Source of the DNA: a virus
DNA: 64,000 nt
Virus record (IMG/VR): IMGVR_UViG_3300046817_000837
Coordinates: 24,636-88,635 of that record
Direction: 5' to 3' (one strand)
Shown here: in pieces, positions 11,501 to 64,000 of the stretch
Layout of the letters: the number at the start of each line of letters is the position of its first letter
Position numbering within the stretch: position 1 is the first letter of the stretch
Notes under the pieces: generated by a model
Told to the model about the DNA's origin: nothing
Database searches by the model: none
What the model saw: only the letters and a program-made list of their open reading frames with translations
Made by a program: the position numbers and the translations under genes

Positions 11501-11751
11501 GACGCCCGGGTGCCGAACGGCCGCTCGCCGTCCAGCAGCAGGGTCTGCACCTGGCTGACGGTCGGCTGCGGGGCGCCCAGGTCCCAGGTCATCCCCGGGC
11601 TCGCGGCGGAGCCCGGGGACGACGGGGCGAACAGCCGGAAAACGGCCCCGGTGCCGGCCGCGTTCACCAGGGCGGGAATGTCCGACTGCACGCCGGATGC
11701 CCCGCCGAGGACCTCGATCAGGTCCGCGATGATGAGCGAGTCGCTAGCCAC
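8533..11751 (-). CDS. Large tail protein: distal-tail-like N-terminus with glycine-rich insertions
   Basis: 1,072 residues. The first ~220 residues (GTGAVFRLFAP, MTWDLGAPQPTVSQVQTLLL, ERPFGTRASNRTITLPV, PSWTLTWTPSST, VITLTFQALPYGRS) match phage distal tail (Dit-like/siphovirus tail component) proteins. It then has a carbohydrate-binding-like region, a block (~430-800) with three glycine-rich WTCP...ECWAGGGA modules, and a C-terminal beta domain (VNGIVVMGELTLPVKG, SFLNRWFLERLV). Starts 8 bases inside the end of the tape measure gene. Antisense frames here are composition shadows. Confidence 0.75.
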   Translation of the reverse strand: MASDSLIIADLIEVLGGASGVQSDIPALVNAAGTGAVFRLFAPSSPGSAASPGMTWDLGAPQPTVSQVQTLLLDGERPFGTRASNRTITLPVRITAPDQATLSAAKEYLIQAVDQPSWTLTWTPSSTGLTQVFDCFRALPTVFSYGFLPNQPLPMAVITLTFQALPYGRSAPDQLTDVAFSSPILNGIAAPPAPVTLDAFGTVSGTGWTQTTQFVVGPHSARYTPPNANYVPVTYSKSGLSLNITGLPVLSVWFGQAYYVPLFGKPHSGFKSNVTFRWTLTDNGGHKLTFHRTFNGLPYNSKALVPKWTRVTAPVPQGNASFNYASVASYSLTLSNWAGQGKTAFVRMNAWLDDVVANPPSLAAPASQRGVVYNVMGVPGTARTPVSCQFQLPQADPLSLELSGSGVWWPPPGVTSVKAECIGAGGAGGSRSTSGQGGGGGGGEYAAEPALTVTEGTPVPYSCGTAGTTGASQQVLTFTSPGSGSWTCPANVTAILAECWAGGGAGTTGGGGAGGGEYAAEPALAVTPGKTYSFKVGLGGQAGVTPGAGGTSTTFPGDSVTVLAHPGKPASPAGTSSGGAGGSGSANTTHHNGGTGGTSPSYGGGGGGGGGGTAAAGNTGSNGAGNTGGAGAVAVTGGGAGGAGASNPGFPAAGAAPGGGGGGGYTNLGNNPGAAGGAGQVRLTYTVNAGTPVSGASTTFGSAATTVTVVTAHGGQSVALNTATGGTGGTGSANTTHSNGGAGGLGGTNGGGGGGSGGSASVGNAGTAGASGGTGAAAVAGGGKGANGGTAAVDVGDGASPPGGGGGGAVTTGTAQAGGQGGNGNIVLTWSPPLAQFRTLVAHRPGADSPPELNPCVPVSNTADPPSGTQYTVPSLVSGVNALFNGTYTVVLVAYAWDSPSSARTVTVTVNQFEYLGGHNFPLSVSRTFTPSTDIVNGIVVMGELTLPVKGLDPSNTSGFFTVSITDTDNNDQFLDVLFLDAQGSTVIINVPPGTDYANFYIDEPTIERDLGLVLGSDLDRSQAVSVLDNVLVSGSPFYIQPGDNLFLAYTVDGAPDLAVSFLNRWFLERLV

Positions 11752-14700
11752 CGTAGTACCCCCTGCCGGCGCCGCGGGCTGCGGCCACGCCGATCCCGTG
11801 CGCGAACTGCTGGCCCTGCGCCCCGGTGACCCGGGTGTTCTCCTGGACCGCGTGGATCATCTGCCGCAGCAGCATGTTGGTCTCGTGCAGGGAGCCGGGG
11901 CCCTGCGCCGGGCTGACCATCTCCGCCTTGCCCGAGGTGTTGACGCCCACGCCCCACGGGGGCAGGATGCCGCCCTTGTCATAGGTTGAGCCGACCAGGC
12001 CGCCGGAACGGTAGCCGTGCCCGTGCCCGATCACGCCCGCCATCGCCGCCCCGCCGTAGCGCGCGGAAGCGTAGTGGATAGCTGCGTATATTTGTGCCAT
12101 CGGATTTTCTGATACCGTGCCTCCGCCAAAATTCACCAGCGGCGGGGTGTTAACATAGGGCCCTGCGTAAGCATGGAAGGTCCCAGGTATGAGTTGGAGG
12201 AGCCCAACGGACGGATGACCCGCCTGAGCGTTACTGTCCGTGAGGTTCACGGCGTTCAAATTTCCGCCAGATTCTGTTTGAATCTGAGAAAGCCAGTTGG
12301 AAACCAGGGACAGCGGCAGGCCCATCGAGCTCAGGACGGCGGAGATGTCGGCGGCGTAGTTGCCGGAGCCGGGCCCGAGGAACACCCCGCCGCCGGCCGC
12401 TGCCGCTGCTGCCGCTGCGGCCTGGGTGGCCTTGATGGCCGCGTTCGCGAAGGCCACGGCCGAGTTCTGGCCGAACAGCGCCTCGGAGTTGCTGAACCCG
12501 GTGATGCCCTTGGTCACCTGGGTGTCCACGAAGCCGGCCAGGCCGCCGGCCGCGTACCTGCGCGCGGTGACGCCGCCGAGCCACGGCGACTGGGTGGGCG
12601 TGGCGGTGAACCCGGGGATACGGCCGCGCAGGTGGTCGACCAGGCCGGCGCTCACCATGTTCGCCGGCACGACGAGCTCGCCCTTGCTCAGGAACGCCGC
12701 CACGTCATCCGCGGTGGGCGTTGACCCCCGGTTGATGAACAGCCCCTTGGCCGGGGTGAGCACGTGCCCGCCGCCAGGCCCCGAGGCGCCGCTGATCCGG
12801 CCGGTCGTGGTGTTCAGCGTCCGGGTGGCGACGCCGGTCCCGCTGATGGTGATGTTGCCCTTGCCCTGCATCTGGAGCACGATGTCGATCGCCTTGCTCA
12901 GCGGGATGTGCAGGATCTTGGAAATCATCGCGGCGATTTCCCCGGTCGTGTCGTGGGCGGCGCGGCCGGCGTTGATGATGGACTGGACCAGCGCGTCCTG
13001 CTGCGGCTTGGCCTTGGCGGCGTCGCCGCCGGACTGGGCGAGGGCGGTGCCGTAATCGGTGGCTGCCTTCTGCACGCCGTCATAGGCCAGGATCGCGTTA
13101 TTAATGTCGCCGATCAGCTCGTTGGCGAGGAACTGGCCCTGGGACTGCATCGCCCCGGTCAGCAGCGCCTCCTGCGTGGTCGCCTCGTCGGTGATCTTCT
13201 TCAGGTCCTTGGTGGCCGAGCCGGTGTTCTGGAGCCACTTGTTCAGTTCCTTGAACGCCGCCGGGCCGGTGTACCCGGCCGTCCGGGCGATCTTGGTCAG
13301 CTTGTCCAGCAGGGCCTGGTCGCCCTTGGCGTGCGCGAGCAGCGGGGTAATCGACTTCTTGACGCTCACGGTGAGCGCGTCGTTCTGGTTAGCGGCTGCG
13401 CCCAGCCACTTGGTCAGCTCCTTGAGGGAGACCGGGCCGGTGTAGTTGGCTTCCTGCGCCAGCGCGACCAGCTGGGCGGTGGCCTCGGTGGACCCGCTGG
13501 CGTACCGCAGCAGCGGCGCGATGGCGTCCTTGACGGCCTGGCTGAACGCGGCGGTGCCGCCGATCGCGGTGCGCAGGGAGCCGAGCATCCGGTCGGTGTT
13601 GGTGACCTGCTGGGTGAACGCCTGGTTGAGGTCCAGGCTGGCCTGGGACAGCCCGTCCATCGAGGCGCCGGTCAGCGTGCCGGTTAGCGTCAGCTGGCCC
13701 AGCTTGTTCTTCAGCGTCTCGCCGCTGCCGCCGGCCTTGGCGAAATTCGCGTTCAGGTTGACGATGCCCAGCGCCACCGTGTCGAACGTCCCCTGGGTGC
13801 TGGTGACGTCGCCGATGAAGGTGTTCCATGCCTGGTTCAGCTTCTGGGTGGCCTGGTACTGGTCGGTCTCGGTGCGGCCCAGGACCTCCAGGTTGTTCTC
13901 CAGCGATCCGGTGACCCCCGTCATGGCCCGGATCGCGTTGATCGTCCCGTCGATCTCCGCGGTGTCGATGGCCCACGCCTGGCCCTGGTCCTTGGTGACC
14001 TGCGCGGTGGTGATGCCGGCGGCGTTCAGGATGCCCAGGGCGGCGGCGGAGCTGCCGTAGGCCCGGATCAGCGGCTGAAGCCGGGACTGCTCGGTATCGC
14101 GCTGGCCCTGGAGGGTCGTCAGCGCCGCCTGGAGGTCCTTCACCTTGGCCGTCTGCTCGGCTATGGCGTCCCGGGCGCCCAGCACGGTCGGGACGTAGTT
14201 CTTCCCGGAGGCGACGTACTGGGTGGTCTGGCTGTTCACGGCGGCCTGGTCGATGGCGAGCTGCTTCTGGGCCGCGGACAGGTCCACGGCTGCGGCGGCT
14301 GCCGCGCGGGCGTTCGCCGCCAGGGACTGGGTGATGGGGGCGGCGTCCGCCAGGGCGACGATGTCAGAGGCGAGGTTCCTCGTGGCGCTGGAGCTGTGGT
14401 TCAGCCAGAGGACCAGGGCGGTCAGCCCGGCTATCGCCAGCCCGACCCAGGCCACGGGCGAGACCCGGGACAGCAGGGCGCCGGCCGCCGCGGCAATTCC
14501 CTCGGCGGCGGCCATCCGCTGGAACATCACGGCCGCGAAGGCTGCCCGCGCCCCCGCGTTGACCAGGGCGCCGGTCAGCGGGACGAGGACCCTGGCGTAC
14601 AGGGCCGTTCCCAGCGTGACCGCCAGGCCGATGTAGATGAACGCCCCGTGGATGGCCAGGCCCCAGCGCAGCACCGGCTCGATCATCGCGGTGAAGTTCT

Positions 14701-16210
14701 CCAGCAGCCGGGTGACGACCACGCCGAAGGCCAGCAGCTTCTGGGCGTAGTCCGGCACCACGTTCAGGATGTTGCCGATGGCGCCGAACACGTTGCCGAA
14801 GGAGTTGCCGAGGCCGAGCAGGCTGTCGGAGGCGTTCTTGGTGAAGACGTCAAAGGCTTTGCCGTTTGACAGCGCCACGGTGATCCGGGCGGCCAGGTAG
14901 TCAACGACCGGCCCCGTCTTCGCCACGATCTTCTGGAAGTCATTGGTGCGGCTGCTCATGACCGTCAGGGCGTCGCCGAAGATCTGGTACACCTGGGGCC
15001 GGACGGCGTTGTGCAGCTTCTCCATGGTGCCGGTCAGCGGGAACATGGACTGGTTGGTGGCGTCTGCCGCGGTGTGCAGCGCCTGCATGCGGATGAAGAT
15101 CTCCTTCGCCGCATCGGAGCCGGCGATGCCGAACGCGGTGGCTGCGATGGCAGCGCCGCCCCAGACGGCGATCAGCTCGACCAGGATGTCGGCGGCCAGG
15201 TGCATGACGGTGACGTGCGTGGCCCAGGCGGGCAGGATTCCCTGGAGCAGGCCGCCGAACAGGGTGACCTTCGCGCCCAGCACGGCGAAGATGCCGCCGA
15301 GCCAGCCTCCGGTGACGCCGAAGGCCCGCATGCCGTTGTTTCCCTGGACGATCAGCGGCGGCACCTTGCCCAGGGCGATGCCGAGCAGGTTCTGGGCCAC
15401 GGTGACCTGCGTCGTGGCCGCCGCTGCGCTGGCCGCCGCCGCCGCGGCCTTCTGGAAGGCGCCCTCCAGGCCGAGCAGCGCCGAGTTTGCGGCGGCCAGG
15501 CCCGCCACGTCCACGTTCATCCGGATGTCATGCGCCTGCGCGGTCAGGGCATCGATCTCTGCCCTGACCTGCGTGATGGCCGCGGTGACGGCGGAGGTGT
15601 CCGCCAGGACCCGGGCCGTCACCGGATGAGACTTCAGTACCCGCAGCTTTGCCTCGACGGCGTCGAGCTTGGTCAGCGTGGCCGCCAGCTGCACGTCATC
15701 GATCACGCCGCCGAGGTTGATGATCTTGTCGAAGCCATTCAGGGTCTTCTCCAGGTTCTTCGCCTGAAGCTCCAGGGCCGCGATCTGGGCGATGGCCTGC
15801 TTGGTGTCCGCGTCGATCTGCAAGTGCGAGGACTTCTGCACCAGGGCGGCCAGCTTCGCCCGGAGGGCGGCGACCTGCGCGTCAATCCTGGTGGTGTCCG
15901 CGCTCAGCGTGAGGCCGGTGACCGTCTTGGCCAGGGCGAGCAGCCTGGCCTGCAACCCGCTGATGACGGCCTGGGCCTGCTTGTCGTCAGCCCCGATGGG
16001 GATCGTGACGAGCTGCCTGGACAGCGCGTCCATCCGGGTTTTCATGTTCGCGACCGAGGCCGCCAGCCCGCCGGAGTCCGCGGTGAACTTGACGCTGACC
16101 TCAGGCTTGATCCCGGCCAGCGCCGCCTTGATCTGAGCGTCCAGCTTCACGCGGAAGCCGGTGGCATCGGGGCCCACCGTTACGAAGGCATCCCCTAGCT
16201 GGCGGGCCAT
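11744..16210 (-). CDS. Tape measure protein with lytic transglycosylase domain
   Basis: 1,488 residues. N-terminus ARQLGDAFVTVGPDATGF..L is typical of tape measures. Long helical/coiled-coil stretches follow, and two hydrophobic zones (~residues 300-360 and 500-600) that could cross the membrane. Residues ~1330-1420 form an SLT-like peptidoglycan lytic domain: QIQTESGGNLNAVN with the catalytic Glu, SVGLLQLIPGTFHAY, IHYASARYG. FLSKGELVVPANMV lies just before it. Sets tail length and likely helps local cell-wall penetration. The SLT coding stretch (~12060-12320) is visibly more AT-rich than its surroundings. Confidence 0.9.
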   Translation of the reverse strand: MARQLGDAFVTVGPDATGFRVKLDAQIKAALAGIKPEVSVKFTADSGGLAASVANMKTRMDALSRQLVTIPIGADDKQAQAVISGLQARLLALAKTVTGLTLSADTTRIDAQVAALRAKLAALVQKSSHLQIDADTKQAIAQIAALELQAKNLEKTLNGFDKIINLGGVIDDVQLAATLTKLDAVEAKLRVLKSHPVTARVLADTSAVTAAITQVRAEIDALTAQAHDIRMNVDVAGLAAANSALLGLEGAFQKAAAAAASAAAATTQVTVAQNLLGIALGKVPPLIVQGNNGMRAFGVTGGWLGGIFAVLGAKVTLFGGLLQGILPAWATHVTVMHLAADILVELIAVWGGAAIAATAFGIAGSDAAKEIFIRMQALHTAADATNQSMFPLTGTMEKLHNAVRPQVYQIFGDALTVMSSRTNDFQKIVAKTGPVVDYLAARITVALSNGKAFDVFTKNASDSLLGLGNSFGNVFGAIGNILNVVPDYAQKLLAFGVVVTRLLENFTAMIEPVLRWGLAIHGAFIYIGLAVTLGTALYARVLVPLTGALVNAGARAAFAAVMFQRMAAAEGIAAAAGALLSRVSPVAWVGLAIAGLTALVLWLNHSSSATRNLASDIVALADAAPITQSLAANARAAAAAAVDLSAAQKQLAIDQAAVNSQTTQYVASGKNYVPTVLGARDAIAEQTAKVKDLQAALTTLQGQRDTEQSRLQPLIRAYGSSAAALGILNAAGITTAQVTKDQGQAWAIDTAEIDGTINAIRAMTGVTGSLENNLEVLGRTETDQYQATQKLNQAWNTFIGDVTSTQGTFDTVALGIVNLNANFAKAGGSGETLKNKLGQLTLTGTLTGASMDGLSQASLDLNQAFTQQVTNTDRMLGSLRTAIGGTAAFSQAVKDAIAPLLRYASGSTEATAQLVALAQEANYTGPVSLKELTKWLGAAANQNDALTVSVKKSITPLLAHAKGDQALLDKLTKIARTAGYTGPAAFKELNKWLQNTGSATKDLKKITDEATTQEALLTGAMQSQGQFLANELIGDINNAILAYDGVQKAATDYGTALAQSGGDAAKAKPQQDALVQSIINAGRAAHDTTGEIAAMISKILHIPLSKAIDIVLQMQGKGNITISGTGVATRTLNTTTGRISGASGPGGGHVLTPAKGLFINRGSTPTADDVAAFLSKGELVVPANMVSAGLVDHLRGRIPGFTATPTQSPWLGGVTARRYAAGGLAGFVDTQVTKGITGFSNSEALFGQNSAVAFANAAIKATQAAAAAAAAAGGGVFLGPGSGNYAADISAVLSSMGLPLSLVSNWLSQIQTESGGNLNAVNLTDSNAQAGHPSVGLLQLIPGTFHAYAGPYVNTPPLVNFGGGTVSENPMAQIYAAIHYASARYGGAAMAGVIGHGHGYRSGGLVGSTYDKGGILPPWGVGVNTSGKAEMVSPAQGPGSLHETNMLLRQMIHAVQENTRVTGAQGQQFAHGIGVAAARGAGRGYYGG

Positions 16211-17958: not shown

Positions 17959-18393
17959 TTAGGTGCCGGCGATGCCCGTGGTCGGGTACCGGGAGATCCT
18001 GGTCGCGGCATTCCAGGTGGACTTCAGCGACACGGCCGCGGTCACGCCGCCGGCGAGAGAGTAGTCCGGGAGGATCTGGCCGAAGAAATACTGGCCAGGG
18101 GCCGCGCCCTGCACGCCCAGCGTGCTCGGGTACAGGTAGAAGTTGCGCGGCAGGCCGTCCGTGGCGGCAACGTACGTCTGCGCCGTGGCCGTGTCATAGA
18201 AACCGCTGAAGTCGCCGGAGGCGTCAGGCAGGCCAGCCACCCAGATCAGGTTCTGGTCGCCCATGGTGGTGACGTCGACCTTGTTGACGACGAAGTTGAT
18301 CGACCAGTCCGACAGGAAGGCCATCGGGGCGGCCAGGTCGGCCGGGTTCACGCCGATGTAGGCGATCCCGTTGCGACCATGGATACGACTCAC
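17959..18393 (-). CDS. Major tail (tube) protein
   Basis: 144 residues. Clear pattern of actinophage tube proteins: GRNGIAYIGVNP, AFLSDWSINFVVNKVDVTT, GDQNLIWVAGLPDASG, FSGFYDTATAQTYVAATDG, FYLYP, GQYFFGQILPDYS, GGVTAAVSLKSTWNAA. First gene of the minus-strand tail operon. Its first ~35 residues are mirrored at the start of the tagged protein at 58590-59036. Confidence 0.9.
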   Translation of the reverse strand: MSRIHGRNGIAYIGVNPADLAAPMAFLSDWSINFVVNKVDVTTMGDQNLIWVAGLPDASGDFSGFYDTATAQTYVAATDGLPRNFYLYPSTLGVQGAAPGQYFFGQILPDYSLAGGVTAAVSLKSTWNAATRISRYPTTGIAGT

Positions 18394-37042: not shown

Positions 37043-37062
37043 CCCTCCTGAAAGGAACGACC

Positions 37063-39137: not shown

Positions 39138-39158
39138 TCCGGCCATTCCGGGCCTTCG

Positions 39159-39190: not shown

Positions 39191-39217
39191 GGGAACGTCA
39201 GCGAAGGAAGTATCTTC

Positions 39218-39439: not shown

Positions 39440-39459
39440 GCCCGCCCGGGACAAGGGGA

Positions 39460-39485
39460 CAGCCCCGGCCATGAGACCGGGGCTG
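39460..39485. terminator. Hairpin between converging genes
   Basis: CAGCCCCGG CCATGAGA CCGGGGCTG, 9-bp perfect stem, between the DUF397 gene (+) and the basic-protein gene (-). No U run. Confidence 0.55.
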
Positions 39486-39503
39486 CCTGGTCGTAGCTCT
39501 TCA

Positions 39504-39641
39504 TCAGTGCGGGGTCTTCTCGTCGCGGCGCTGCGTGCGCGCCGGGTTGTTACGGGTCCTGCGGTGCTGGGCGGCGTACTTCGCGCACTTGTCCTTGTTC
39601 CGCCCGATCTTGCGGCCCTTGCTGGTCTTGCTTGCTGCCAT
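39504..39641 (-). CDS. Very basic small protein
   Basis: 45 residues: MAASKTSKGRKIGRNKDKCA, KYAAQHRRTRNNPARTQRRD. A common small basic actinophage protein (KGRKIGRNK..C..Y). Could bind nucleic acid. Too short to be found by usual length limits. Confidence 0.6.
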   Translation of the reverse strand: MAASKTSKGRKIGRNKDKCAKYAAQHRRTRNNPARTQRRDEKTPH

Positions 39642-39724
39642 GGGGTGATCTCACCCCCTCTCATGCTCGCCTTACGGCCTGGGCATGAGATGCTGCTCGC
39701 TCCTCACGGGCGGGCTCCTTTCCG

Positions 39725-39907
39725 TTAGCGCCGGGGCAGCAGGACGCGCTGCGCCACGGCGTCAGGGTAGCTGCGCCGGATGCGCGGCTTACCGCGCTCG
39801 GCCTGGCTCCACGTTACCGAGACATTCCCGTCGCGCACGAGGCTGACGGTCCCGGTGGTCTCCTTGCTGAACAGCAGGCTCACCTGCTGCCCCGCCTTGA
39901 GCGTCAT
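39725..39907 (-). CDS. Small beta-rich protein
   Basis: 60 residues from ATG 39907. LKAGQQVSLLFSKETTGTVS, VRDGNVSVTWSQAERGKPRI, RRSYPDAVAQRVLL. An SH3-like small beta domain is possible. ATGA-coupled. Confidence 0.5.
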   Translation of the reverse strand: MTLKAGQQVSLLFSKETTGTVSLVRDGNVSVTWSQAERGKPRIRRSYPDAVAQRVLLPRR

Positions 39908-40095
39908 GATGTTCCTTCCCGGTCTTCGCGGGCGTCGGCGTGCCCGTGGTCGTAACCCCGGTAATAGGCATCTTCCAGGCTCGTGCGCAGCAGCAGCTTC
40001 TTCCACGGTGACCACGGCCGCAGTCCTTTCGCCACGTGGTCCAGCCATTCCCGGACAGCACTGCCCCGGTCTGCGTGGCCGCCTTCGTCCTTCAC
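39904..40095 (-). CDS. Small basic/acidic helical protein
   Basis: 63 residues, GTG start. VREWLDHVAKGLRPWSPWKK, LEDAYYRGYDHGHADARED. The YYRGYDHGH segment is typical of small actinophage proteins of unknown role. Confidence 0.5.
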   Translation of the reverse strand: MKDEGGHADRGSAVREWLDHVAKGLRPWSPWKKLLLRTSLEDAYYRGYDHGHADAREDREGTS

Positions 40096-45701: not shown

Positions 45702-46046
45702 GTGACTGCATACGGCTTTGACCTGGACGGGACGCTCGATCGCCCGGCGCTGGCCCGGCTGGCGAATGACCTGCACGACGTCGGCCATGAGGTCTACGTG
45801 GTAACCGGCGGCCTGGGCGATACAGGCGAGTGGACGCTGCCGGCCCGTGAGCGCACGCTGGCCGCGCTCGGCGTGCGCTACACGGCGATCATGCGCTGCA
45901 TTGACCCGGACATCCGGCAGCTGGGCCTCCTGAAAGGCGAGCAGTGCGCCCGGCTGGGCATCGCCGTCATGGTCGATGACGACCGGCTCTACCTGGACGG
46001 CGTCGCCGCCGCGGCCAGTGACGTCGTGCGGCTGCTGGTGCTGTGA
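45702..46046 (+). CDS. HAD-superfamily phosphatase-like protein
   Basis: 114 residues, GTG start. YGFDLDGTLD is HAD motif I (nucleophile Asp and acid Asp), VYVVTGGLGD motif II, LLKGEQCARLG supplies the Lys, AVMVDDDRLYLDG the DD of motif IV. No cap domain, so it may act on large substrates such as nucleic-acid ends, or simply on nucleotides. Intact source of the remnant at 44855-44925. Confidence 0.7.
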   Translation: MTAYGFDLDGTLDRPALARLANDLHDVGHEVYVVTGGLGDTGEWTLPARERTLAALGVRYTAIMRCIDPDIRQLGLLKGEQCARLGIAVMVDDDRLYLDGVAAAASDVVRLLVL

Positions 46047-46381
46047 TGAGCGGCGTGAGCGGCGCGGACCTGTACCGGGAACTGGTCGGGCAGGCGTACG
46101 AGCGCCGCAGCGACTGGCGCAATGACCACCGGAGCCTGTACTGGGTGATGAGCCATGAGTGTCGCAATGTCATCATGCAACTGTGCTCACCGCAGGGATG
46201 GCCGGCCCTGGAGCTGTCGCGCACCGAGGGCCTGCGGGACATGCTGTTCGGCTACCCGGTCATCGCCGGGCCTGCCTACGGCCCGCCGCTGCTGACTGAC
46301 GACCCGCTGGCAGCGGCGCAACGCGTGCAGCTGATCGCGCGGAACCTGACGCTAGCGGAACTGGCTAGTGAGCCGGGCTAG
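46043..46381 (+). CDS. Tagged protein with capsid-like motif (paralog of 48281-48631)
   Basis: 112 residues. LYWVMSHECRNVIMQL, then GLRDMLFGYPVIAG and LLTDDP. WVM.P... followed by L.GYPV is the pattern of the A-domain of HK97-fold major capsid proteins. Ends with IARNLTLAELASEPG, a variant of the shared C-terminal peptide. It shares the order WVM, G[YI]PV..G, LT.DP, AR.LTL.EL with 48281-48631. Too short to form a capsid; may be a mimic, decoy or capsid partner. Confidence 0.5.
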   Translation: MMSGVSGADLYRELVGQAYERRSDWRNDHRSLYWVMSHECRNVIMQLCSPQGWPALELSRTEGLRDMLFGYPVIAGPAYGPPLLTDDPLAAAQRVQLIARNLTLAELASEPG

Positions 46382-47257: not shown

Positions 47258-48288
47258 CCACGATCTCCTTCACCGCCTCCCGCTTTAACTTCGCCCCGCC
47301 GCCGTCCGTCGTGGCCAGCGTGCTGTCCGCCCGGGTGCCGCTCGCGGACCGCTACGTCACCGGGGCCTGCCAGGGCGGGGACGCCTGGATCGGCGCCTGG
47401 CTGTACGTGACCAGGCCGGCCGCTGAGCACGTCGTGGTGGTCCCGTGTAACCGCCGTCAGGTCGACCCCTGGTGGACGCGCACCGGGAGCCTGCCGCTGG
47501 TGACCGTCATCGACATGCCCCCGGGCACCAACTACGCCGACCGGAACCGGGAGCTAGTGGCCAGGGCTGACCAGGTCTTCGGCTTCCCGGCATTCCCGGA
47601 GGAGGACCCGCGGTCGCAGCGCAGCGGCACCTGGCAGACGATCCGGATGGCCCGCGACGCCGGGAAGCTGAGGCTGTGGCAGTGCGTCACGCCGCCGTAC
47701 CGGGGGCAGGTTGAGGCCCTGACGGGGGAGCCGGACCTCGCGGCGCCGGCCACCGTCTCCTATCGCGAGGAGCTCGCGCGGTTCATGACCGCGGAGGGCG
47801 AGGAGAAGATCCGGATGCTCTTCGCGGAGCCGGATGAGCACCAGCCGTGGTGCGGAGACGCGTCGCTGAGCCGGCCGGACGATGAGTGCACTTGCGACGT
47901 CACCCCGGAGATGCAGTACGCGCAGCGCGGCCAGTCCGAGGCGGAGCAGGCCCGGCGCGGGGATGACGGACTCACGGACGAGGAGCGCGCTGAGTACGCC
48001 CGGCGCTTCTGGGCGGTGGCCAATGCCCCAGTCTCGCCCGAGATGCGGGCAGCCACGCGCCGTCGCCTTGACTCCGCGGCCATCGGCGAGTCCCGGCACC
48101 AGGCCCGGCGCGGGGATGACGTCGAGGCATGGCTGAGGGGCTGGCGGGACCTGCTCGGCGGCGACCCCTGGCACGCCGTGAACGGGCTGCTGGATGATTA
48201 CCGCAAGCGGGCCGATCTCGGGATTGCCCTCGATGACGATAGCGAAGCAGGGCACGCCGCTGGGCACGGAGCCGGCGAGGATGAATGA
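47254..48288 (+). CDS. SLOG/Rossmann-type nucleotide-binding protein
   Basis: 344 residues, GTG 47254. N-terminal ~150: ISFTASRFNFAPPPSVV, YVTGACQGGDAWIGAWLYV, EHVVVVPCNRRQVDPWW, PPGTNYADRNRELVARADQV, RSGTWQTIRMARDAGK. This strand-helix order with a Gly-rich loop and a late RSGT.......A..GK element is that of SLOG-superfamily domains, which bind or cleave nucleotide signals. The C-terminal half is helical and acidic (LTDEERAEYARRFWAVANAP). May sense or sequester a host second messenger. Confidence 0.55.
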   Translation: MTTISFTASRFNFAPPPSVVASVLSARVPLADRYVTGACQGGDAWIGAWLYVTRPAAEHVVVVPCNRRQVDPWWTRTGSLPLVTVIDMPPGTNYADRNRELVARADQVFGFPAFPEEDPRSQRSGTWQTIRMARDAGKLRLWQCVTPPYRGQVEALTGEPDLAAPATVSYREELARFMTAEGEEKIRMLFAEPDEHQPWCGDASLSRPDDECTCDVTPEMQYAQRGQSEAEQARRGDDGLTDEERAEYARRFWAVANAPVSPEMRAATRRRLDSAAIGESRHQARRGDDVEAWLRGWRDLLGGDPWHAVNGLLDDYRKRADLGIALDDDSEAGHAAGHGAGEDE

Positions 48289-48631
48289 CCCGTCGCAGGT
48301 GAGCTACCAGGACCTGTGGGCGTACCTGGTCGATGAGTACTACCGGTTCCGGCTCCTGGACGCCCCTCGCCGCGGGCCCTGGGCCTGTCACCTGTGGTGG
48401 GTAATGCACCCGCGCTGGCTGCACCCGTGCCTGAACGCAGAAGTAATGAACATGAGCTACCGCATGTACCAGGAACAGCGCAAGAGCCCGGAATGGCTGC
48501 TGACCGGCATCCCGGTCCTGGAAGGCATGAAGTTCGGGGAGCCGAAGCTGACGCGGGACCCGGCCAGCCTCAGCAAGGGGCCGTACCTGCACGCCCGGCC
48601 GCTGACGCTGCGGGAGCTGATGAGCCGGTGA
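48281..48631 (+). CDS. Tagged protein with capsid-like motif
   Basis: 116 residues from ATG 48281. YQDLWAYLVDEYYRFRLL, HLWWVMHPRWLHPCLNAE, WLLTGIPVLEGMKFGEPKL, TRDPASL, ends YLHARPLTLRELMSR. WWVMHP and TGIPV...G echo the capsid A-domain pattern also present at 46043-46381. The C-terminal peptide is the shared tag. Followed by a GTGA-coupled HAD gene. Confidence 0.55.
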   Translation: MNDPSQVSYQDLWAYLVDEYYRFRLLDAPRRGPWACHLWWVMHPRWLHPCLNAEVMNMSYRMYQEQRKSPEWLLTGIPVLEGMKFGEPKLTRDPASLSKGPYLHARPLTLRELMSR

Positions 48632-55900: not shown

Positions 55901-56482
55901 GTGACTGAGGAAGCGCCGCGGGCCGGGCCTGCCCTGACCGCGGCACAGCAGGACCTGCTGCGCCGGCTAACCCAGGGCCCGCAGCCGGCGGTAACCTGCG
56001 TGCTCGGCGTCGACCCCGGCCCTGTCACGGGCATCGCGTGGCTGTGCTCCGGGCCGGGGCAGCGTCCCCTGGTCTTCCAGTGCAATGCCGCGGGCGCGTA
56101 CCCGCTGGCGAGCTGGCTGCTGGAGGCCAGCGAGGGGCCGGCCCGGATCATCTGCGCCGGCGAGCGGTTCATCACCGGGCGCGGCGCCGGGGCCAGGGGC
56201 GCGAACGCTACCGCCACCCGGCAGGTGATCAGCGACCTGGACCGGCTCGCCAGGTGGCACTGGCGCAGCGCAGCAGAAGTGAAACCCTGGGCAACCGACG
56301 CCCGGCTGAAGGCGGCAGGGCTGCTGGAGCAGTGCCACGGCATGCCGCACGCTGCCGACGCGTGCAGGCATGCTTTGTTTGCCATGATCCACGACTGTGG
56401 CATGCCCGATCCGCTCTCGCGCAAGGCGGGCACGCTCTATGCCCGGTCACTGTCGCTGGAAGAACTGGAGGGCTTCTCATGA
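55901..56482 (+). CDS. RuvC-like resolvase with C-terminal tag
   Basis: 193 residues, GTG 55901. RNase-H fold: CVLGVDPGPVTGIAWL (first Asp), IICAGERFITGRG (Glu), VKPWATDARLKAAGLLEQCH, MPHAADACRHALFAMI (last Asp). This is the compact Holliday-junction-resolvase-like family of actinophages, which typically ends soon after the PDPLSRK segment seen here. In this phage it continues with AGTLYARSLSLEELEGFS, the shared terminal peptide. The tag on a DNA enzyme suggests that the peptide, not the body, carries a common signal. Confidence 0.75.
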   Translation: MTEEAPRAGPALTAAQQDLLRRLTQGPQPAVTCVLGVDPGPVTGIAWLCSGPGQRPLVFQCNAAGAYPLASWLLEASEGPARIICAGERFITGRGAGARGANATATRQVISDLDRLARWHWRSAAEVKPWATDARLKAAGLLEQCHGMPHAADACRHALFAMIHDCGMPDPLSRKAGTLYARSLSLEELEGFS

Positions 56483-56670
56483 TGCCGGCTGACGGGGAGA
56501 GCAGCTTCCGGATGGTGCTGACCTCGAATTCCTGCCCGCGCTGCGGCGCCATCACCTACCTCCGGCTGTCCGCCTCCGCAGAGGGAAGCGTCGCCGTGGC
56601 CGGCGAGCAGCCACCGCCCGTCGACAACCGGGCGCAGCACGCGGACTGGCACGAGCGGACGGGCACGTGA
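56479..56670 (+). CDS. Small protein with CxxC, ending ERTGT
   Basis: 63 residues, ATGA overlap. FRMVLTSNSCPRCGAITYLR, LSASAEGSVAVAG, ends DWHERTGT. The next gene ends in GWRERTGT, the same last residues. CPRCG is a likely half zinc site; function unknown. Confidence 0.5.
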   Translation: MMPADGESSFRMVLTSNSCPRCGAITYLRLSASAEGSVAVAGEQPPPVDNRAQHADWHERTGT

Positions 56671-56903
56671 GCGCCTGGCGGCTAGTGGCGGGCCTGGCCG
56701 GCGTGGCGGCGGCACTCGCGGCCGTGATCCTGGCAGCCCAGGCGGTCGCCAGGGGATCAGTGCTGGAGATCGCGTTCCTGCCCGCGCTCATCGGGCTGCC
56801 CGCCAGCGTCGCGGTGATCATCCTTGAGCCGTCCTCCCCGGGCGAGGATGATGATGACGACGAGGATGACGAGCCGGGCTGGCGCGAGCGGACGGGCACG
56901 TGA
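56667..56903 (+). CDS. Two-span membrane protein with acidic tail, ending ERTGT
   Basis: 78 residues, GTG start. LVAGLAGVAAALAAVILAAQ and EIAFLPALIGLPASVAVIIL are membrane helices; then a run of Asp/Glu (EDDDDDEDDE) and GWRERTGT. It directly precedes the array of tagged paralogs and may anchor or localise them. Role unknown. Confidence 0.55.
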   Translation: MSAWRLVAGLAGVAAALAAVILAAQAVARGSVLEIAFLPALIGLPASVAVIILEPSSPGEDDDDDEDDEPGWRERTGT

Positions 56904-57262
56904 GCAGGCACCGGGGCCGGATAGGGTTCCGGGGCGGCTGGGCGCTGACGTACGAGGAAGACCGCTGGTGGCCGTCCTGGGAGAGTGCTTCCCGGCTGCA
57001 CTGCGTCACCTGGACGCTGGACGACGTGGTCATGACGCAGGCGCAGTACGAGCGGGCCGCCGCCGTCCGGGACGACGCTCCGTACTGGCTGACCGCCATG
57101 GCAGCCGGGCTTGCGATGACGGCCGGGCTCGCGATGGTCAGCGGGATCTTGCTCAGCGAGGCTGAGGCGATGGCCATCCGGCGCGGCGCTCACCCGCTGA
57201 CGGTGCTGCTGCCCCGGACCTGGGCCCGGCCGCTGACCCTGGCGGAGATGATGGGTGCATGA
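56900..57262 (+). CDS. Tagged paralog array, member 1
   Basis: 120 residues, GTG start. HRGRIGFRGGWALTYEEDRW, CVTWTLDDVVMTQAQYERAA, MVSGILLSEAEAMAIRRG, HPLTVLLPRTWARPLTLAEM then MGA. Two 'V/L-x-[LM][TS]xxxA' helices and the G.HPLTVL..P linker before the tag are the array's signature. A hydrophobic LTAMAAGLAMTAGLAM stretch is specific to this member. Confidence 0.65.
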   Translation: MSRHRGRIGFRGGWALTYEEDRWWPSWESASRLHCVTWTLDDVVMTQAQYERAAAVRDDAPYWLTAMAAGLAMTAGLAMVSGILLSEAEAMAIRRGAHPLTVLLPRTWARPLTLAEMMGA

Positions 57263-57570
57263 GCGTGCTGGCGCAGCGAGACGGCTGGACGCTGGAGACA
57301 GGCCCGCCTTCCCCTCCTGACTTCCCCTGTGCTGCGTTCATCCTGCGCGAGCTGGCCGTGACGCAGGAGCAGTGCGCCGCCATCTTGTACCGCTGCGGCC
57401 GGACCGGGTCCTGGTTCCGGGTCCCCGTCCCCGGCGGATGGGTCATGACGCTGGAGCTGGACCGGGCGGAGGCGCACGCGATCGGGCTGCTGGGACGCGA
57501 CCCGCTGACGGTGCTGGCTCCCCCGCTGCACGCCCGGTCACTGACCCTGAGGGAGATGATGAGCGCATGA
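57259..57570 (+). CDS. Tagged paralog array, member 2
   Basis: 103 residues. LAQRDGWTLETG, FILRELAVTQEQCAAILY, GWVMTLELDRAEAHAIGL, DPLTVLAPPLHARSLTLREM then MSA. Shares its first ten residues (SVLAQRDGWTL) exactly with member 3, evidence of recent tandem duplication. ATGA-coupled both sides. Confidence 0.65.
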   Translation: MSVLAQRDGWTLETGPPSPPDFPCAAFILRELAVTQEQCAAILYRCGRTGSWFRVPVPGGWVMTLELDRAEAHAIGLLGRDPLTVLAPPLHARSLTLREMMSA

Positions 57571-57887
57571 GCGTGCTGGCGCAGCGAGACGGCTGGACGC
57601 TGAGCGCGTGGCGCTGGCCCCGGAGCGGCAGCCTGCTCCGGCACGTGTACCAGCTCCGGCACGTGTACCAGCTGGACGGGCTGACGGTAACGGACGCGCA
57701 GCTCCAGGCCATGACCGCCCGGTCATCGCACATGTGGTGGGTAAGCCCTGAGTGCCTGATCATGCACGGCGTCAGCCTCACCTGGGAGCAAGCCCGCGCA
57801 ATCCAGGACGGGGCAAATCCGGTAACCGTGCTGACCCCTCGCTTCCGGGCCCGGTCACTGACCCTGAGGGAGATGATGGGCGCATGA
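57567..57887 (+). CDS. Tagged paralog array, member 3
   Basis: 106 residues, ATG 57567. LAQRDGWTLSAWRWPRSGSL, a doubled LRHVYQLRHVYQLDGL (an 18-bp in-frame DNA repeat), LTVTDAQLQAMTA, VSLTWEQARAIQDGANPVTV, RFRARSLTLREMMGA. The small internal duplication shows that the array is still changing. Confidence 0.65.
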   Translation: MSVLAQRDGWTLSAWRWPRSGSLLRHVYQLRHVYQLDGLTVTDAQLQAMTARSSHMWWVSPECLIMHGVSLTWEQARAIQDGANPVTVLTPRFRARSLTLREMMGA

Positions 57888-58267
57888 GCAGGATAGTCAT
57901 GAAACGACGGCTGCGGTGCGGCGCGGTGCTGACCGCGCAGGAGCACTGGGAGCACTCGATGGGCGTCATGTCGCCAGGGCACCGGGAGGTACTCTTCACG
58001 CTGCATGACCTCCCGGTGACGCCCGGAGACGCCGAGCGGCTGATGTCGGCGCGACCGCGGCCATGGCGTCGGGGTGCAGGCAGCTGGATTACCAGAACCT
58101 TCATGCACCAGTACGGCGCGAACGTCACCCCCGTCTTGTCCCTGTCCCGGATTCAGGTCACGCCGCAGGAGGCGGACCGCATGCTGTCCGGGGAGCACCC
58201 GATGGCGGTGCTGCTGCCGCCGCTGTACGCGCGGTCGCTGACCCTGGCGGAGATGACGGGCGCATGA
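57884..58267 (+). CDS. Tagged paralog array, member 4
   Basis: 127 residues, ATG 57884. GAVLTAQEHWEHSMGVMSPG, VLFTLHDLPVTPGDAERLMS, LSRIQVTPQEADRMLSGEHP, LPPLYARSLTLAEMTGA. Lacks the DGWTL opening but keeps both VTP..A segments and the linker. Confidence 0.65.
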   Translation: MSRIVMKRRLRCGAVLTAQEHWEHSMGVMSPGHREVLFTLHDLPVTPGDAERLMSARPRPWRRGAGSWITRTFMHQYGANVTPVLSLSRIQVTPQEADRMLSGEHPMAVLLPPLYARSLTLAEMTGA

Positions 58268-58593
58268 CGTGCAGCGAGATGCTCGCCGCCCGGGACGGCT
58301 GGACGCTGGACGCGGCGTGGGAGGGCGCCTTCCCGTACGGGACCGTGTCCTCCCCGGTTCGCTGCACGCTGTCCGGGCTGCGGGTGACGAGGAGCCAGGC
58401 CCGCGCCATCACCACGGGCCGGGCCGTGCTCACCGTTGAGCACGAGTACCCGTTCGGCAGCTTCTTCCTCCTGCACCTGGAGGTCACGCCGGCCGAGGCT
58501 CACGCCATCGCGGGCGGCAGGCACCCGCTGAACGTGCTGATGCCGCCGCTGTACGCGCGGTCGCTGACCCTGGCGGAGATGACGGGCACGTGA
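58264..58593 (+). CDS. Tagged paralog array, member 5
   Basis: 109 residues, ATG 58264. MLAARDGWTLDAAWEGAFPY, CTLSGLRVTRSQARAITTGR, LLHLEVTPAEAHAIAGGRHP, LYARSLTLAEMTGT. Textbook member: DGWTL opening, two VT..[EQ]A.AI units and tag. Confidence 0.65.
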   Translation: MTCSEMLAARDGWTLDAAWEGAFPYGTVSSPVRCTLSGLRVTRSQARAITTGRAVLTVEHEYPFGSFFLLHLEVTPAEAHAIAGGRHPLNVLMPPLYARSLTLAEMTGT

Positions 58594-59036
58594 CCCGCGT
58601 CACCGGCAGGAACGGGATCATGTACCTCGGCACGGGGCCGGGCGCGCTGCTCGGCCAGCCCGTGGCTTATATCCCGGACTGGTCCATTGACTTCGACGTC
58701 CTGCCGGCAGCACTGACCGGGGTGACGCTCGCCGAGCGGGACGGCTGGACGCTGCGGGCCGGCACCGCCCCGTACGGTCACTTCGGCGATACGCGCCCGC
58801 TGTACGTGCTGGAGAACCTGATGGTGACGGCCGGGCAGGCGAGCCAGGTCATGCGGCACCGGCCGGGGGACCTGCCCTGGCACCTGGGCCACGGCAACGG
58901 CCCGCTGCGGCCGATGAAGATGGTGCTGACCACGGAGGAGACGGTGCGCGTCTGGCGCGGGGCCGACCCGCTGGCCATGCTGGCCCCGCCGCTGCGCGCC
59001 CGCGCGCTGACCCTGGAGGAGATGATGAGGGAATGA
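58590..59036 (+). CDS. Chimera: major-tail-protein N-terminus + tagged array domain (member 6)
   Basis: 148 residues, GTG start. The first ~36 residues (VTGRNGIMYLGTGP, VAYIPDWSIDF) match the start of this phage's major tail protein (IHGRNGIAYIGVNP, MAFLSDWSINF) at about 20 identical positions. Then the array domain: LAERDGWTLRAGTAPYGHF, LENLMVTAGQASQVM, VLTTEETVRVWRGADPLAML, RARALTLEEMMRE. In the real tube protein the N-terminal arm contacts neighbouring rings, so this could be a tube-binding cap or decoy. Confidence 0.7.
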   Translation: MTRVTGRNGIMYLGTGPGALLGQPVAYIPDWSIDFDVLPAALTGVTLAERDGWTLRAGTAPYGHFGDTRPLYVLENLMVTAGQASQVMRHRPGDLPWHLGHGNGPLRPMKMVLTTEETVRVWRGADPLAMLAPPLRARALTLEEMMRE

Positions 59037-59446
59037 GCTGGGACTGGCCGGGCTGGCGACTGGCCCGCACCTTCCACGGCAGCCGGAACGGGATGGCCCG
59101 GCGCGATAACTGGACGCTGGAGACCTGGCAGTACGAGGCGCCGCTGACCTGTTACTCCGAGTACCTCATCCCGCGCGTGACCACCGACGTGCGGTACGTG
59201 CTGTCCGGCCTGACGGTGACGCCCCGCGAGGCGGATGCCATCACCGGCCGTCGCCTGGGGCACTTCGCGCCGCCGCGGGCCAGCGTGCACTACGGCTACG
59301 GCCCTGGCCCGGTCCTGGTGATGGACGACATTGAGCTGACCATGGACGAGGCGGCGGCCATCGTAGACGGCACCGACCCGGTGGCCGCGCTGGCGCCGCG
59401 GATCAGGGCACGGCCGCTGAGCCTTCAGGAGATGATGGGCGCATGA
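59033..59446 (+). CDS. Tagged paralog array, member 7
   Basis: 137 residues. MARRDNWTLETWQYEAPLTC, RYVLSGLTVTPREADAITGR, MDDIELTMDEAAAIVDGTDP, RIRARPLSLQEMMGA. NWTLE replaces DGWTL. ATGA-coupled on both sides. Confidence 0.65.
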   Translation: MSWDWPGWRLARTFHGSRNGMARRDNWTLETWQYEAPLTCYSEYLIPRVTTDVRYVLSGLTVTPREADAITGRRLGHFAPPRASVHYGYGPGPVLVMDDIELTMDEAAAIVDGTDPVAALAPRIRARPLSLQEMMGA

Positions 59447-59694
59447 GCGAGGGCTACTCCTGGCGGGACCTGACGGGCTTCCTGGTGTCCGTCCACCGTG
59501 ACCAGGCCGCCCGGCAAGAAGCCGGGGACCGCCAGGTCGCGGCACTGCGGGCGTCGGTCTGGCAGCTCCAGCGCCAGGCCGGCGTGATGACCCTGAATGA
59601 GGTGCGGGCCCGGCAGGACAGGGCGTCCCTGCCGCCCGGCACGATCGTGCTGCGCGCCCGGCCGCTGAGCCTTCAGGAGATGCTAGGCACGTGA
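59443..59694 (+). CDS. Tagged protein with portal-like motif (member 8)
   Basis: 83 residues. Helical front (HRDQAARQEAGDRQVAALRA, SVWQLQRQAG), VMTLNEVRARQDRASLPPG, then IVLRARPLSLQEMLGT. It lacks the VT..EA domain. G.MT.NEVRA...LPPG resembles a motif near the C-terminal part of HK97-type portal proteins. The tag is nearly identical to that of member 9 although the bodies differ. Confidence 0.55.
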   Translation: MSEGYSWRDLTGFLVSVHRDQAARQEAGDRQVAALRASVWQLQRQAGVMTLNEVRARQDRASLPPGTIVLRARPLSLQEMLGT

Positions 59695-59725
59695 CGCAGG
59701 ACAACGGAAAGCGAGTGCGCACGCC

Positions 59726-60100
59726 ATGCGGCCACCAGGAATTACCTACGATGCCCCCCGGCCGCAGCCGTGGACGCTGACCCAGGTCCGGGACTACCCG
59801 GGCGGGCCGCGGCGGTGGCAGCTGGCCCTGGAGGTTACCGGCGGCGAGCAGGCCAGGGCGGTCCGGCTAGCGCGGGGCGGCAGCGGGGTGATGCGGACCC
59901 GGGACGACGGCGTCATGCGGTACCCGGAGGCTTACCTGTTCGAGTTCATCGACGTCACCGCGGAGGAGATGCTCGCCATCGCGGGCGGGGCCAGCCCGCT
60001 GGACGTGCTGCTGCGCGGCCCGGACGGGGCGCGGCAGTGGCTGTGGCCGCTGGTGCTGCGCGCCCGGCCGCTGAGCCTTCAGGAGATGCTGGGCACGTGA
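59726..60100 (+). CDS. Tagged paralog array, member 9
   Basis: 124 residues, ATG 59726, after a 31-base gap. PRPQPWTLTQVRDYPGG, LALEVTGGEQARAVRLARGG, EFIDVTAEEMLAIAGGASPL, LVLRARPLSLQEMLGT. Two array units retained, opening PWTL instead of DGWTL. Confidence 0.65.
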   Translation: MRPPGITYDAPRPQPWTLTQVRDYPGGPRRWQLALEVTGGEQARAVRLARGGSGVMRTRDDGVMRYPEAYLFEFIDVTAEEMLAIAGGASPLDVLLRGPDGARQWLWPLVLRARPLSLQEMLGT

Positions 60101-60270
60101 GCCACGGGGACTACGTGCAGCTCCTGGCGAGGCTGTACCTGGCCGGGATCATCACCGCAGCCAAGGCCCGCTGCCTGCATGAGGCCGCTTTCACGCGATG
60201 GCGGGCAACGACCGGGGGGCCGCTGCCGCTGGCAGCCCGGCCACTGACCCTGGCCGAGATGCTGGGCTAG
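60097..60270 (+). CDS. Tagged protein, last of the array (member 10)
   Basis: 57 residues, GTG start. YVQLLARLYLAGIITAAKAR, CLHEAAFTRWRATTG, LAARPLTLAEMLG. Minimal body. No gene follows on this strand for 190 bases, so its tag is not a by-product of a downstream ribosome site. Confidence 0.6.
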   Translation: MSHGDYVQLLARLYLAGIITAAKARCLHEAAFTRWRATTGGPLPLAARPLTLAEMLG

Positions 60271-62824: not shown

Positions 62825-64000
62825 CCCGTGCCTGCCTAGCCAGGCCCGTCCTAGCCGAGCCATTCCTGCCGGGGCGGGCCGCGCCCAGCCCTGCCTAGCC
62901 TTGCGACGCCTGCCGAGCCTTGCCCAGCCGCGCCACGCCAAGCCCTGCCTGCCCAGCCGAGCCTAGCCCAGCCGCACCACGCCTAGCCATGCCTGCCACG
63001 CCAGACCTTGCCCTGCCTAGCCATGCCTGCCGGACCTCGCCTCACCTAGCCAAGCCATGCCGCGCCTGCCCTGCCGTGCCGCGCCGGGGCCTGCCGAGCC
63101 TAGCCATGCCTGCCTAGCCGAGCCCTGCCGAGCCTAGCCATGCCATGCCTGCCAGTCCTGGCCTTGCGTCACCCCGCCTTGCCCCGCCGTGTCCATCCCT
63201 TTTACGCCGGATGCTGCTGCTCCCGTGCCTGCCCGGCCACGCCAGACCTCGCCGCGCCTAACCTCACCTGCCCCGCCATGCCAGACCTTGCCGCGCCTAA
63301 CCTCACCTGCCGCGCCAGACCTCGCCATGCCCTGCCGTGCCTAGCCGTGTCCATCCCTTTGCGCCGGATGCTGCTGCTCCCGTGCCTGCCGCGCCGCACC
63401 TGGCCATGGCTAACCTCACCGCGGCTGCCGAGCCGATCCCAGCCGTGCCTAGCCGTGCCGGCCCTGACCTCGCCTGCCCTGCCGCGCCGCGCCTGACCCA
63501 GCCAGGCCACGCCATGCCTGCCGCGCCGACGCGCGCCACCCCGTGCCAAGCCACGCCCTGCCTGCCGGTCCCCGCCTAGCCCCGCCTGGCCATGCCAGCC
63601 CGAGCCATGCCTGCCTTGCCAGACCTTGCCTCGCCGTGCCTTGCCGTGCCTGCCCGGCCTCGCCACATCGCGCCATGCCTCTCCTTGGCCAGCCTCGCCA
63701 TGCCTGCCCCGCCTGGCCTCGCCGGACCCTGCCCTGCCGCGTCCATCCCTTTACGCCGGATGCTGCTGCTCCCGTCCCTGCCGGTCCCGGCCTAGCCTCA
63801 CCGAGCCTGACCTGCCTGACCGCGCCATGACGCACCGAGCCTTACCGGTCCCTGCCTGCCATGCCACGCCACCCCGTGCCAAGCCCTACCTGCCCTGCCG
63901 CGCCGCGCCCTGCCGTGCCGTGCCTCGCCTGCCGCGCCTGGCCCTGCCGCACCGCACCATGCCACGTCCATCCCTTTACGCCGGATGCTGCTGCTCCCGT
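62825..64000. repeat. Degenerate CCNNG pentanucleotide repeat region, non-coding
   Basis: About 1.15 kb made mostly of 5-base units of the form CCNNG (CCTAG, CCATG, CCGCG, CCTTG, CCGAG, CCACG...), with occasional 4-base units that are almost always CCTG. The plus strand is strongly C-rich and rarely contains GG. Higher-order copies occur, for example CCAGACCTCGCCGCGCCTAA at 63242 and a near copy at 63284. TAG in CCTAG closes frames often, and period five does not fit codons, so I see no gene here. It lies upstream of the helicase and runs past the window end. Confidence 0.9.
63191..64000. repeat. Four copies of a 35-bp repeat inside the pentanucleotide region
   Basis: Unit begins GTCCATCCCTTTACGCCGG and ends ATGCTGCTGCTCCCGT. 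Copies at 63191-63226 (one extra T), 63349-63383 (G for A), 63741-63775 and 63966-64000. Same orientation, spacing 158, 392 and 225 bases. It breaks the CCNNG pattern, so it is a distinct, conserved element such as an iteron or protein-binding site. Confidence 0.9.

Follow-up and report, generated by a model that had tools for sequence, protein, structure and literature searches.

Within a 64,000-nucleotide stretch of viral DNA (the window; part of the 88,635-base virus record IMGVR_UViG_3300046817_000837, positions 24,636 to 88,635), fourteen open reading frames (ORFs) encode small, otherwise different proteins that end in variants of one short peptide, here called the tag. An earlier note on this DNA had listed these ORFs and written their common end as A-R-[PSAN]-L-[TS]-L-x-E-[ML]-[MLT]. 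All fourteen were found where it had placed them, each ending in the motif (Table 1), and its descriptions of the bodies as a RuvC fold, capsid-like proteins, a tape-measure-like protein and a paralog family were confirmed. The motif itself holds in general but needs loosening: the product of 1464–1793 reads VRPLTLEEM in place of an initial AR, and the residue after E[ML], given as M, L or T, can also be E (...EELEGFS) or A (...AELASEPG).

The record is 99.99% identical over 88.6 kb to a longer IMG/VR record, IMGVR_UViG_3300047089_000307 (158,651 bases; hereafter G001), and by this identity the two represent the same phage; G001 positions equal window positions plus 49,970. The head module, missing from the window, is present in G001, where the capsid, portal, tape measure and major tail protein match PHROG families so named (the capsid PHROG 10, HK97-type) and a prohead serine protease matches Peptidase_S78. 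Three further tagged ORFs lie outside the window, with G001 ends at 20396, 116831 and 117474, and the tag is thus carried by at least 17 small proteins of one phage (17 ORFs in G001). The sister phage used for comparison, G005 (IMGVR_UViG_3300032180_000001; 184,980 bases), has a capsid 86% and a prohead protease 75% identical to those of G001. Among the other records, G003 has a capsid 92% identical, G012 is another record of the G001 phage, and G004, approximately a copy of part of G005, was left out of counts as non-independent.

The tag is confined almost entirely to protein ends. A loose six-frame regular expression, [AVLG][RK]x[LMIV][TS][LMV]x[EDQK][MLIV], matched G001 18 times, and 17 of these matches sit 2–5 residues before a stop, all on the plus strand, in line with the C-terminal enrichment that the earlier note had proposed checking. 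A position-specific scoring matrix (PSSM) built from the 17 tags returned 25 six-frame G001 matches of at least 9 bits, 17 of them within 8 residues of a stop; the tags score at least 25.3 bits, and the top near-stop match in nine other phage records, which include the non-independent G004 and G005, reaches 19.2 bits. The position counts and PSSM scores together rule out a chance origin. Clustering of C-terminal 24-mers gave 105 similar tail pairs in G001 against 19 mid-protein pairs, with one 15-member tag cluster. The corresponding ratios of tail to mid-protein pairs were 7:6 in G003, 12:12 in G006, 14:10 in G010, 35:31 in G007 and 15:17 in G009; no shared-motif C-terminal cluster was seen in G003, G006, G007, G008, G009, G010 or G011, and the larger tail clusters (up to 10 members in G009 and 7 in G007) appear compositional. 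The last residues after the tag vary (GA, GT, SA, RE, SR, AQ, LA, AP, PG, FS, LG). Between two tagged genes, G001 116828–117151 ends in a degenerate ...LLEMMAR, perhaps a decaying tag.

Table 1. Tagged proteins and related features; coordinates are those of the window unless a record is named, and lengths are in amino acids (aa).
Feature	Coordinates	Strand	C-terminal tail	Remarks
T51763, 109 aa	1464..1793	+	VRPLTLEEMLA	body resembles own tape measure residues 1146-1237
T96351, 112 aa	46043..46381	+	ARNLTLAELASEPG	relative of own major capsid protein residues 273-354
T98601, 116 aa	48281..48631	+	ARPLTLRELMSR	distant relative of 46043-46381
RuvC-like nuclease, 193 aa	55901..56482	+	ARSLSLEELEGFS	tag follows PDPLS domain end
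Paralog-family protein, 120 aa	56900..57262	+	ARPLTLAEMMGA	
Paralog-family protein, 103 aa	57259..57570	+	ARSLTLREMMSA	
Paralog-family protein, 106 aa	57567..57887	+	ARSLTLREMMGA	
Paralog-family protein, 127 aa	57884..58267	+	ARSLTLAEMTGA	
Paralog-family protein, 109 aa	58264..58593	+	ARSLTLAEMTGT	AlphaFold2 pLDDT (predicted local distance difference test) 85.4
Chimera, 148 aa	58590..59036	+	ARALTLEEMMRE	residues ~1-43 major-tail-protein-like, remainder paralog family
Paralog-family protein, 137 aa	59033..59446	+	ARPLSLQEMMGA	
T109664, 83 aa	59443..59694	+	ARPLSLQEMLGT	body resembles portal residues 355-387
Paralog-family protein, 124 aa	59726..60100	+	ARPLSLQEMLGT	
T110240, 57 aa	60097..60270	+	ARPLTLAEMLG	body similar to a tail-module protein of a relative
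Tagged gene between terminase and portal	G001 20100-20396	+		relative of capsid residues 9-63
Untagged major tail protein	17959..18393	-		PHROG 10528, E 7.3e-5; relative of chimera N-terminus
Untagged tape measure protein	11744..16210	-		PHROG 167, E 3.4e-31; relative of 1464-1793
g203, 418 aa (locus L021)	G001 117862-119118	-		adjoins second tag cluster
Loosely tag-like tails	G003 32602-33201 and 98250-98702	-	GRARALTRAELTGSA, LRARRLSAQELR	

On the RuvC-like protein the tag can be compared with many homologous ends. The model of the 55901–56482 product has a RuvC fold, with Foldseek matches to D. radiodurans RuvC (7xhj; E-value 2.4e-5, TM-score 0.62 by target length) and to Lactococcus phage 67 RuvC (E 2.4e-3). 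D38 and E88 are invariant in six aligned RuvC-like sequences and a later acidic position varies; these positions may correspond to the catalytic acidic residues of RuvC. This phage's protein extends past the common end of that alignment, and its residues 177–193, tag included, form a low-confidence tail in the model (pLDDT below 50). RuvC-like genes were found at 44 loci, two from this phage, one from G005 and 41 elsewhere. No tag was present on any of the 41 tails from elsewhere (last 40 residues read by eye), and 33 loci measured by script end 5–23 residues past the PDP motif (seven of the 41 have no exact PDP motif and one was mis-measured by the script). Because these 41 loci end without it, the tag is, on this comparison, an addition to the RuvC-like body. 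The reading frame of the G005 homologue continues into a region shared with another gene, and this homologue was excluded as evidence. The earlier note had proposed following both the peptide and the ribosome-site DNA through homologues of the same bodies; RuvC-like homologues in phages without tag arrays indeed have no tag, a comparison made at the peptide level. In both G001 and G005, the tag array adjoins the RuvC-like gene.

A capsid search found 258 relatives, the best 80 of which were kept, and a paralog-family profile run against 22 of their records matched G005, plus a weak match in G012; across 2.67 Mb of relatives only G005 matched, 50 further phage records gave no match, and a scan of viral_contigs with two G005 family members found G005 alone. 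The G005 family members do not end in ARPLTLxEM: their ends read approximately LVVVPWxP, followed by 1–21 residues, and this tail is common to family members and to unrelated neighbouring bodies, which include small cysteine-rich proteins, zinc-ribbon-like by eye, and a two-member family. A regular expression for the G005 tag gave 14 matches, 13 of them within 15 residues of a stop, while a loose VPW expression gave 20 tails, from which 176092, 90095 and 109008 were set aside by eye. Clustering of 24-mers yielded 68 similar tail pairs against 16 mid-protein pairs in G005, and one 12-member cluster, in which 74218–74412 is without the PW motif. By these comparisons the tag is phage-specific, since G005 puts another shared tail on the same paralog family; the check in a sister phage that had been suggested thus came out with a different shared tag standing in place of this one. 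So far, the paralog family and a tag appear to occur together. Tagged zinc-ribbon-like proteins (by eye) lie at G005 65775–66751 and 12503–12664 (-), and their body family was not seen in G001.

Codon comparison indicates that what is kept is the peptide. Between unlinked G001 loci, tag codons have a non-synonymous divergence (pN) of 0.17 and a synonymous divergence (pS) of 0.38 (pN/pS 0.44), against 0.65 and 0.49 (pN/pS 1.32) for the nine codons 12 to 4 upstream of the tag, with rows chosen by residue motif, which lowers pN. For the G005 tag, pN/pS is 0.31 against 1.12 upstream and pS 0.62 against 0.67 upstream (15 rows, leaving out a weak plus-strand match at 75540 and the match at 12225, 21 residues from its stop). 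From these values, synonymous sites appear to have covered most of the distance to unrelated sequence, with the residues kept, and the synonymous versus non-synonymous test proposed in the earlier note favours a terminal signal. Codons are also more alike than usage predicts, both between G001 loci (0.606 against 0.457) and over all G005 pairs (0.415 against 0.323), which argues that the tag copies share ancestry.

We compared the tagged bodies, with the tag removed, against the phage's own proteins and found that several resemble pieces of virion proteins. The capsid relatives at G001 20100–20396 (E 7e-10) and 46043–46381 (phmmer E 2.4e-7 among 272 own proteins) each match only part of the capsid and are not full-length capsid proteins; the 48281–48631 product matches the 46043–46381 protein (phmmer E 0.0013), with no direct likeness to the capsid. 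Residues 2–43 of the chimera match the N-terminus of the major tail protein (phmmer E 6.5e-8 among 2290 six-frame ORFs). The 59443–59694 body aligns with the portal at a Smith–Waterman score of 61, reached by none of 1000 shuffles; ORFs of two relatives, confirmed portal ORFs, match it at E 0.014 and 0.021, and there are weak PHROG and Pfam portal matches (E 0.03 and 0.04). The alignment of 1464–1793 with the tape measure scores 79, reached by none of 500 shuffles, and phmmer against the phage's own proteome found no match for it. The 60097–60270 product scores 60 against the G003 orthologue of window 4603–6063 (maximum of 300 shuffles, 40) and only 34 against the phage's own 4603–6063 protein; phmmer found nothing for it.

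By count, relatives of pieces of the phage's own virion proteins are commoner among tagged proteins than among untagged ones. At E 0.01, phmmer matched virion proteins for 3 of 18 tagged and 0 of 181 untagged proteins (P = 6e-4); an alignment score at least 15 above the shuffle median was reached by 5 of 18 against 1 of 181 (Fisher 2e-5), and all 60 shuffles were beaten by 5 of 18 against 2 of 181. The 18 tagged proteins comprise the 17 tags and the degenerate 117151, the five are the capsid twice, the major tail protein, the portal and the tape measure, and the controls are untagged genes below 200 aa, with genes of 200 aa or more and the counted virion genes left out. The phage's own capsid ranks only 40th of 86 and 46th of 77 matches for the two capsid pieces; a fresh self-copy as their source is therefore not supported, and since the own capsid is not their top match, they are probably old or acquired. 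Of 10 matches to the chimera, the own major tail protein is the highest, although in tblastn with the chimera's first 46 residues the G003 major tail protein scored slightly above the own one (42.0 against 41.6 bits).

What the tag may do has several possible answers. Start/stop coupling, put forward earlier as a partial explanation, draws on the 14 of 17 tags that end in an xTGA start/stop overlap, an overlap also present in 69 of the 124 other plus-strand genes and in 48 of 123 on the minus strand, and on the GGAG that the codons before and at E supply in most tag copies. The excess over plus-strand genes is slight (P = 0.04), however, and 68 of the 69 overlapping untagged plus-strand tails are unlike the tag by eye, the 69th being the degenerate LLEMMAR. 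The stops at 1793 and 60270 have no overlapping gene downstream, as the earlier note stated, and the stop at 46381 is likewise without an xTGA overlap (a called start lies 13 bases upstream of it), so that with 3 of 17 genes lacking the overlap the tag is not confined to overlapping starts; in G005 the number of residues between tag and stop varies as well. Because overlaps abound without tag-like tails and three tagged genes have none, coupling is not the sole cause, and it seems scarcely credible that the tag is its by-product or works as a nascent peptide that helps re-initiation on the following gene. Peptide-level conservation and this failure of the coupling account bear out the proposal of a terminal signal, which the sequence comparisons support over a mere coupling by-product. 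Gene birth offers another explanation, in which the tag would have begun as the 3' end of paralog-family genes, been carried to other bodies by recombination that fused gene pieces to it, and have no function outside the family. The codon likeness above usage, pointing to shared ancestry of the copies, the resemblance (by eye) of the tag to the start of a further family repeat, and the one chimeric member all suit such a relic; yet synonymous sites have drifted far while residues were kept, the tag is retained on unlinked bodies, and the sister phage has a different tag throughout, so we give this account a slim chance.

Two kinds of terminal signal have to be set beside docking. Encapsulin cargo-loading peptides are short, C-terminal and common to different cargo, and the encapsulin shell has the HK97 fold. 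Here too a short C-terminal extension sits on different proteins, the phage encodes an HK97-type capsid and a prohead serine protease, and a tagged relative of the capsid delta domain sits between terminase and portal; the tag could bring small proteins into the prohead or another compartment for delivery to the next host. A short terminal peptide common to several small phage proteins is a known broad kind, and its nearest known example appears to be the T4 capsid targeting sequence (CTS), a terminal peptide of about ten residues common to the divergent small internal proteins IPI–IPIII and proposed as a means of bringing varied proteins to one place (PMC9026906). The layout here, small variable proteins with one short terminal peptide, is T4-like in that respect. 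The CTS is N-terminal, is linked to the head core and is cut by the prohead protease (PMC9026906), whereas all 17 tags here are C-terminal; moreover, by evolutionary inference only, this tag varies between phages with conserved capsid and protease. In contrast to encapsulin cargo, the tagged set here includes relatives of the major tail protein and the tape measure, tail proteins that would be out of place inside a head, and no such tag cluster was seen in seven related phages with this head type, two of which are represented by partial records. The tags of G001 and G005 have no motif in common, yet the two capsids are 86% and the two proteases 75% identical; a receptor on the capsid shell or the prohead protease is therefore disfavoured, either is an unlikely partner, and cargo loading overall seems to us unlikely. 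Should the tag be a cargo signal nevertheless, it would be a C-terminal counterpart of the T4 CTS in an uncultured phage group. A gp21-like LxE cleavage site inside the tag was dropped as an idea, the G005 tag having none. A degron, marking proteins of short lifetime or ones that carry their bound targets to a host protease, would be consistent with a short C-terminal peptide on many small proteins, and adaptor-style delivery would account for the virion-like bodies. The conserved extreme C-terminal residues with a free carboxylate of ssrA-type degrons are absent here: such a signal is a misfit because the end residues vary and 1–21 residues trail the G005 motif, so that only an internal motif would serve, and we regard a degron as distinctly improbable.

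Among the kinds of signal first proposed, cargo loading and a free-C-terminus degron are thus weakened, and docking to a common partner would fit best. Because the motif is conserved by residue on unrelated bodies and replaced in the sister phage, it may be a docking peptide whose partner differs between phages. The reading that we tentatively favour, while stopping a little short of calling it probable, is that the tag is a phage-specific C-terminal docking motif through which small proteins, acting as baits or adaptors, attach to a single shared partner. The bodies would confer specificity, and those resembling virion pieces would plausibly bind what the parent pieces bind; targets could be assembly partners in the virion of this phage or of a rival, or host proteins that sense virion components, and the tag would deliver the bound target to the partner. 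The partner would differ between sister phages, each having re-tagged the same body family with its own peptide. We infer docking, partner and a role against rivals or host defence alike from the sequence pattern. A tag that differs between phages on the same family points to a common, phage-specific partner, which might be fished for with a 12-residue peptide.

A candidate for this partner, and no more than a candidate, is g203. Eight G001 genes have a homologue in G005 and none in G006–G011; one is a tagged family member and another is g203, which has a full-length G005 orthologue at 178169–179377 and matches no PHROG or Pfam family.

The virion-like bodies could be baits, directed at assembly partners or at host sensors, and precedents exist for both. 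Tab, a tail assembly blocker of a Pseudomonas prophage, acts via the tape measure (PMC10884400) and is likewise a phage protein aimed at another phage's virion assembly; it is a single protein, and the part of its description consulted mentions neither a shared tag nor any resemblance to part of a tape measure. A phage inhibitor of DSR2, DSAD1, acts in competition with the tail tube protein (PMC10286901), and tail proteins activate Tha (PMC11087260), examples in which host or prophage sensors read virion proteins and phages block them, as a decoy would; DSAD1, again, is described there as a single inhibitor, with no shared tag mentioned. A bolder form of the docking reading, which we hold to be doubtful, is an array of re-tagged virion mimics (capsid, portal, tail tube, tape measure) capturing rival assembly parts or host sensors and passing them to one partner via the phage-specific tag. 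If true, it would be a protein-level interference system in which lineages bar-code their own adaptors and sister phages re-code the same family. More generally, if the virion-like bodies are baits, the result would be a modular interference or immune-evasion system and a new source of addressable adaptor peptides.

Several points weigh against docking and against the bait proposal built on it. The candidate partner g203 has a G005 orthologue that lies far from that phage's tags. In the AlphaFold2 model of a family body the tag has a pLDDT of 84–87 and may pack onto the body rather than hang free. Part of the tag's conservation is, judging by codon likeness, shared ancestry, and the motif-based choice of rows favours low pN. 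The likenesses to portal and tape measure cover short stretches and are weak, and the tail-module likeness of 60097–60270 was found post hoc. G005 tagged bodies have no recognised virion-protein match, so that the virion-piece argument rests on one phage; the G005 tagged protein V15721 matched an unidentified G008 ORF (E 0.0016). Gene calls, finally, were made by a crude custom script and no standard gene finder.

Searches further afield returned little. A viral_contigs DNA scan for ARxLTLxEM found this phage's two records and two other carriers only, which we read as chance; in one the motif stands 3 residues ahead of the stop of a 25-aa ORF, and in the other it is ORF-internal. The tagged gene between terminase and portal is 100% identical in four contigs, one of them G001, and viral_contigs scans for the tag DNA and for the protein from 48281 turned up no carrier that had diverged. 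Five queries (three bodies, a tag-bearing peptide and a G005 family member) gave no tblastn match among INPHARED phages. The family profile had no match in sets of 6, 297 and 293 actinomycete genomes, searches with no positive control in which only some first-look candidates were scored. For the paralog-family body fold, Foldseek gave no match at E below 0.001, and the top VIA match (Z 4.8), to unrelated kinases, is uninformative. Literature searches at title and abstract level, with subscription papers largely outside their scope, showed nothing comparable to the tag system; as far as they reach, the tag change between sister phages and the virion-protein pieces are new.

Cultured phages are distant, with less than 60% identity in all 359 capsid-match and 1,229 portal-match INPHARED records. 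A GTDB contig scan found nine capsid relatives at 49–55% identity, six in Streptomyces and one each in Actinomadura, Actinoallomurus and a Mycolicibacterium metagenome-assembled genome. Since the capsid relatives in bacterial genomes come from actinomycetes, the host is likely an actinomycete.

Other features were noted in passing. Upstream of the array, the untagged neighbours at window 56479–56670 and 56667–56903 share the tail W[HR]ERTGT adjoining a GTGA overlap, a second, smaller shared C-terminus. Two G003 tails are loosely tag-like, GRARALTRAELTGSA on an HNH endonuclease and LRARRLSAQELR, possibly a remnant or forerunner. Portal ORFs in G003 (79113–81836) and G005 (155445–158057, -) are about 900 aa long, against 549 aa here; in G005 the portal-like stretch is located past residue 700, and the large portal ORFs may contain an insert, perhaps an intein. 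The window also encodes phage proteins with DUF397 at 37039–37353 and 39218–39439 (Pfam E 8.7e-22 and 3.4e-20), and has low-complexity repeats with self-matches by its right end, at 63202–63666 and beyond. At G001 37865–40040 there is a transposase with OrfB_IS605-like and Cas12f1-like TNB domains, followed by repeats about 72 bases apart.

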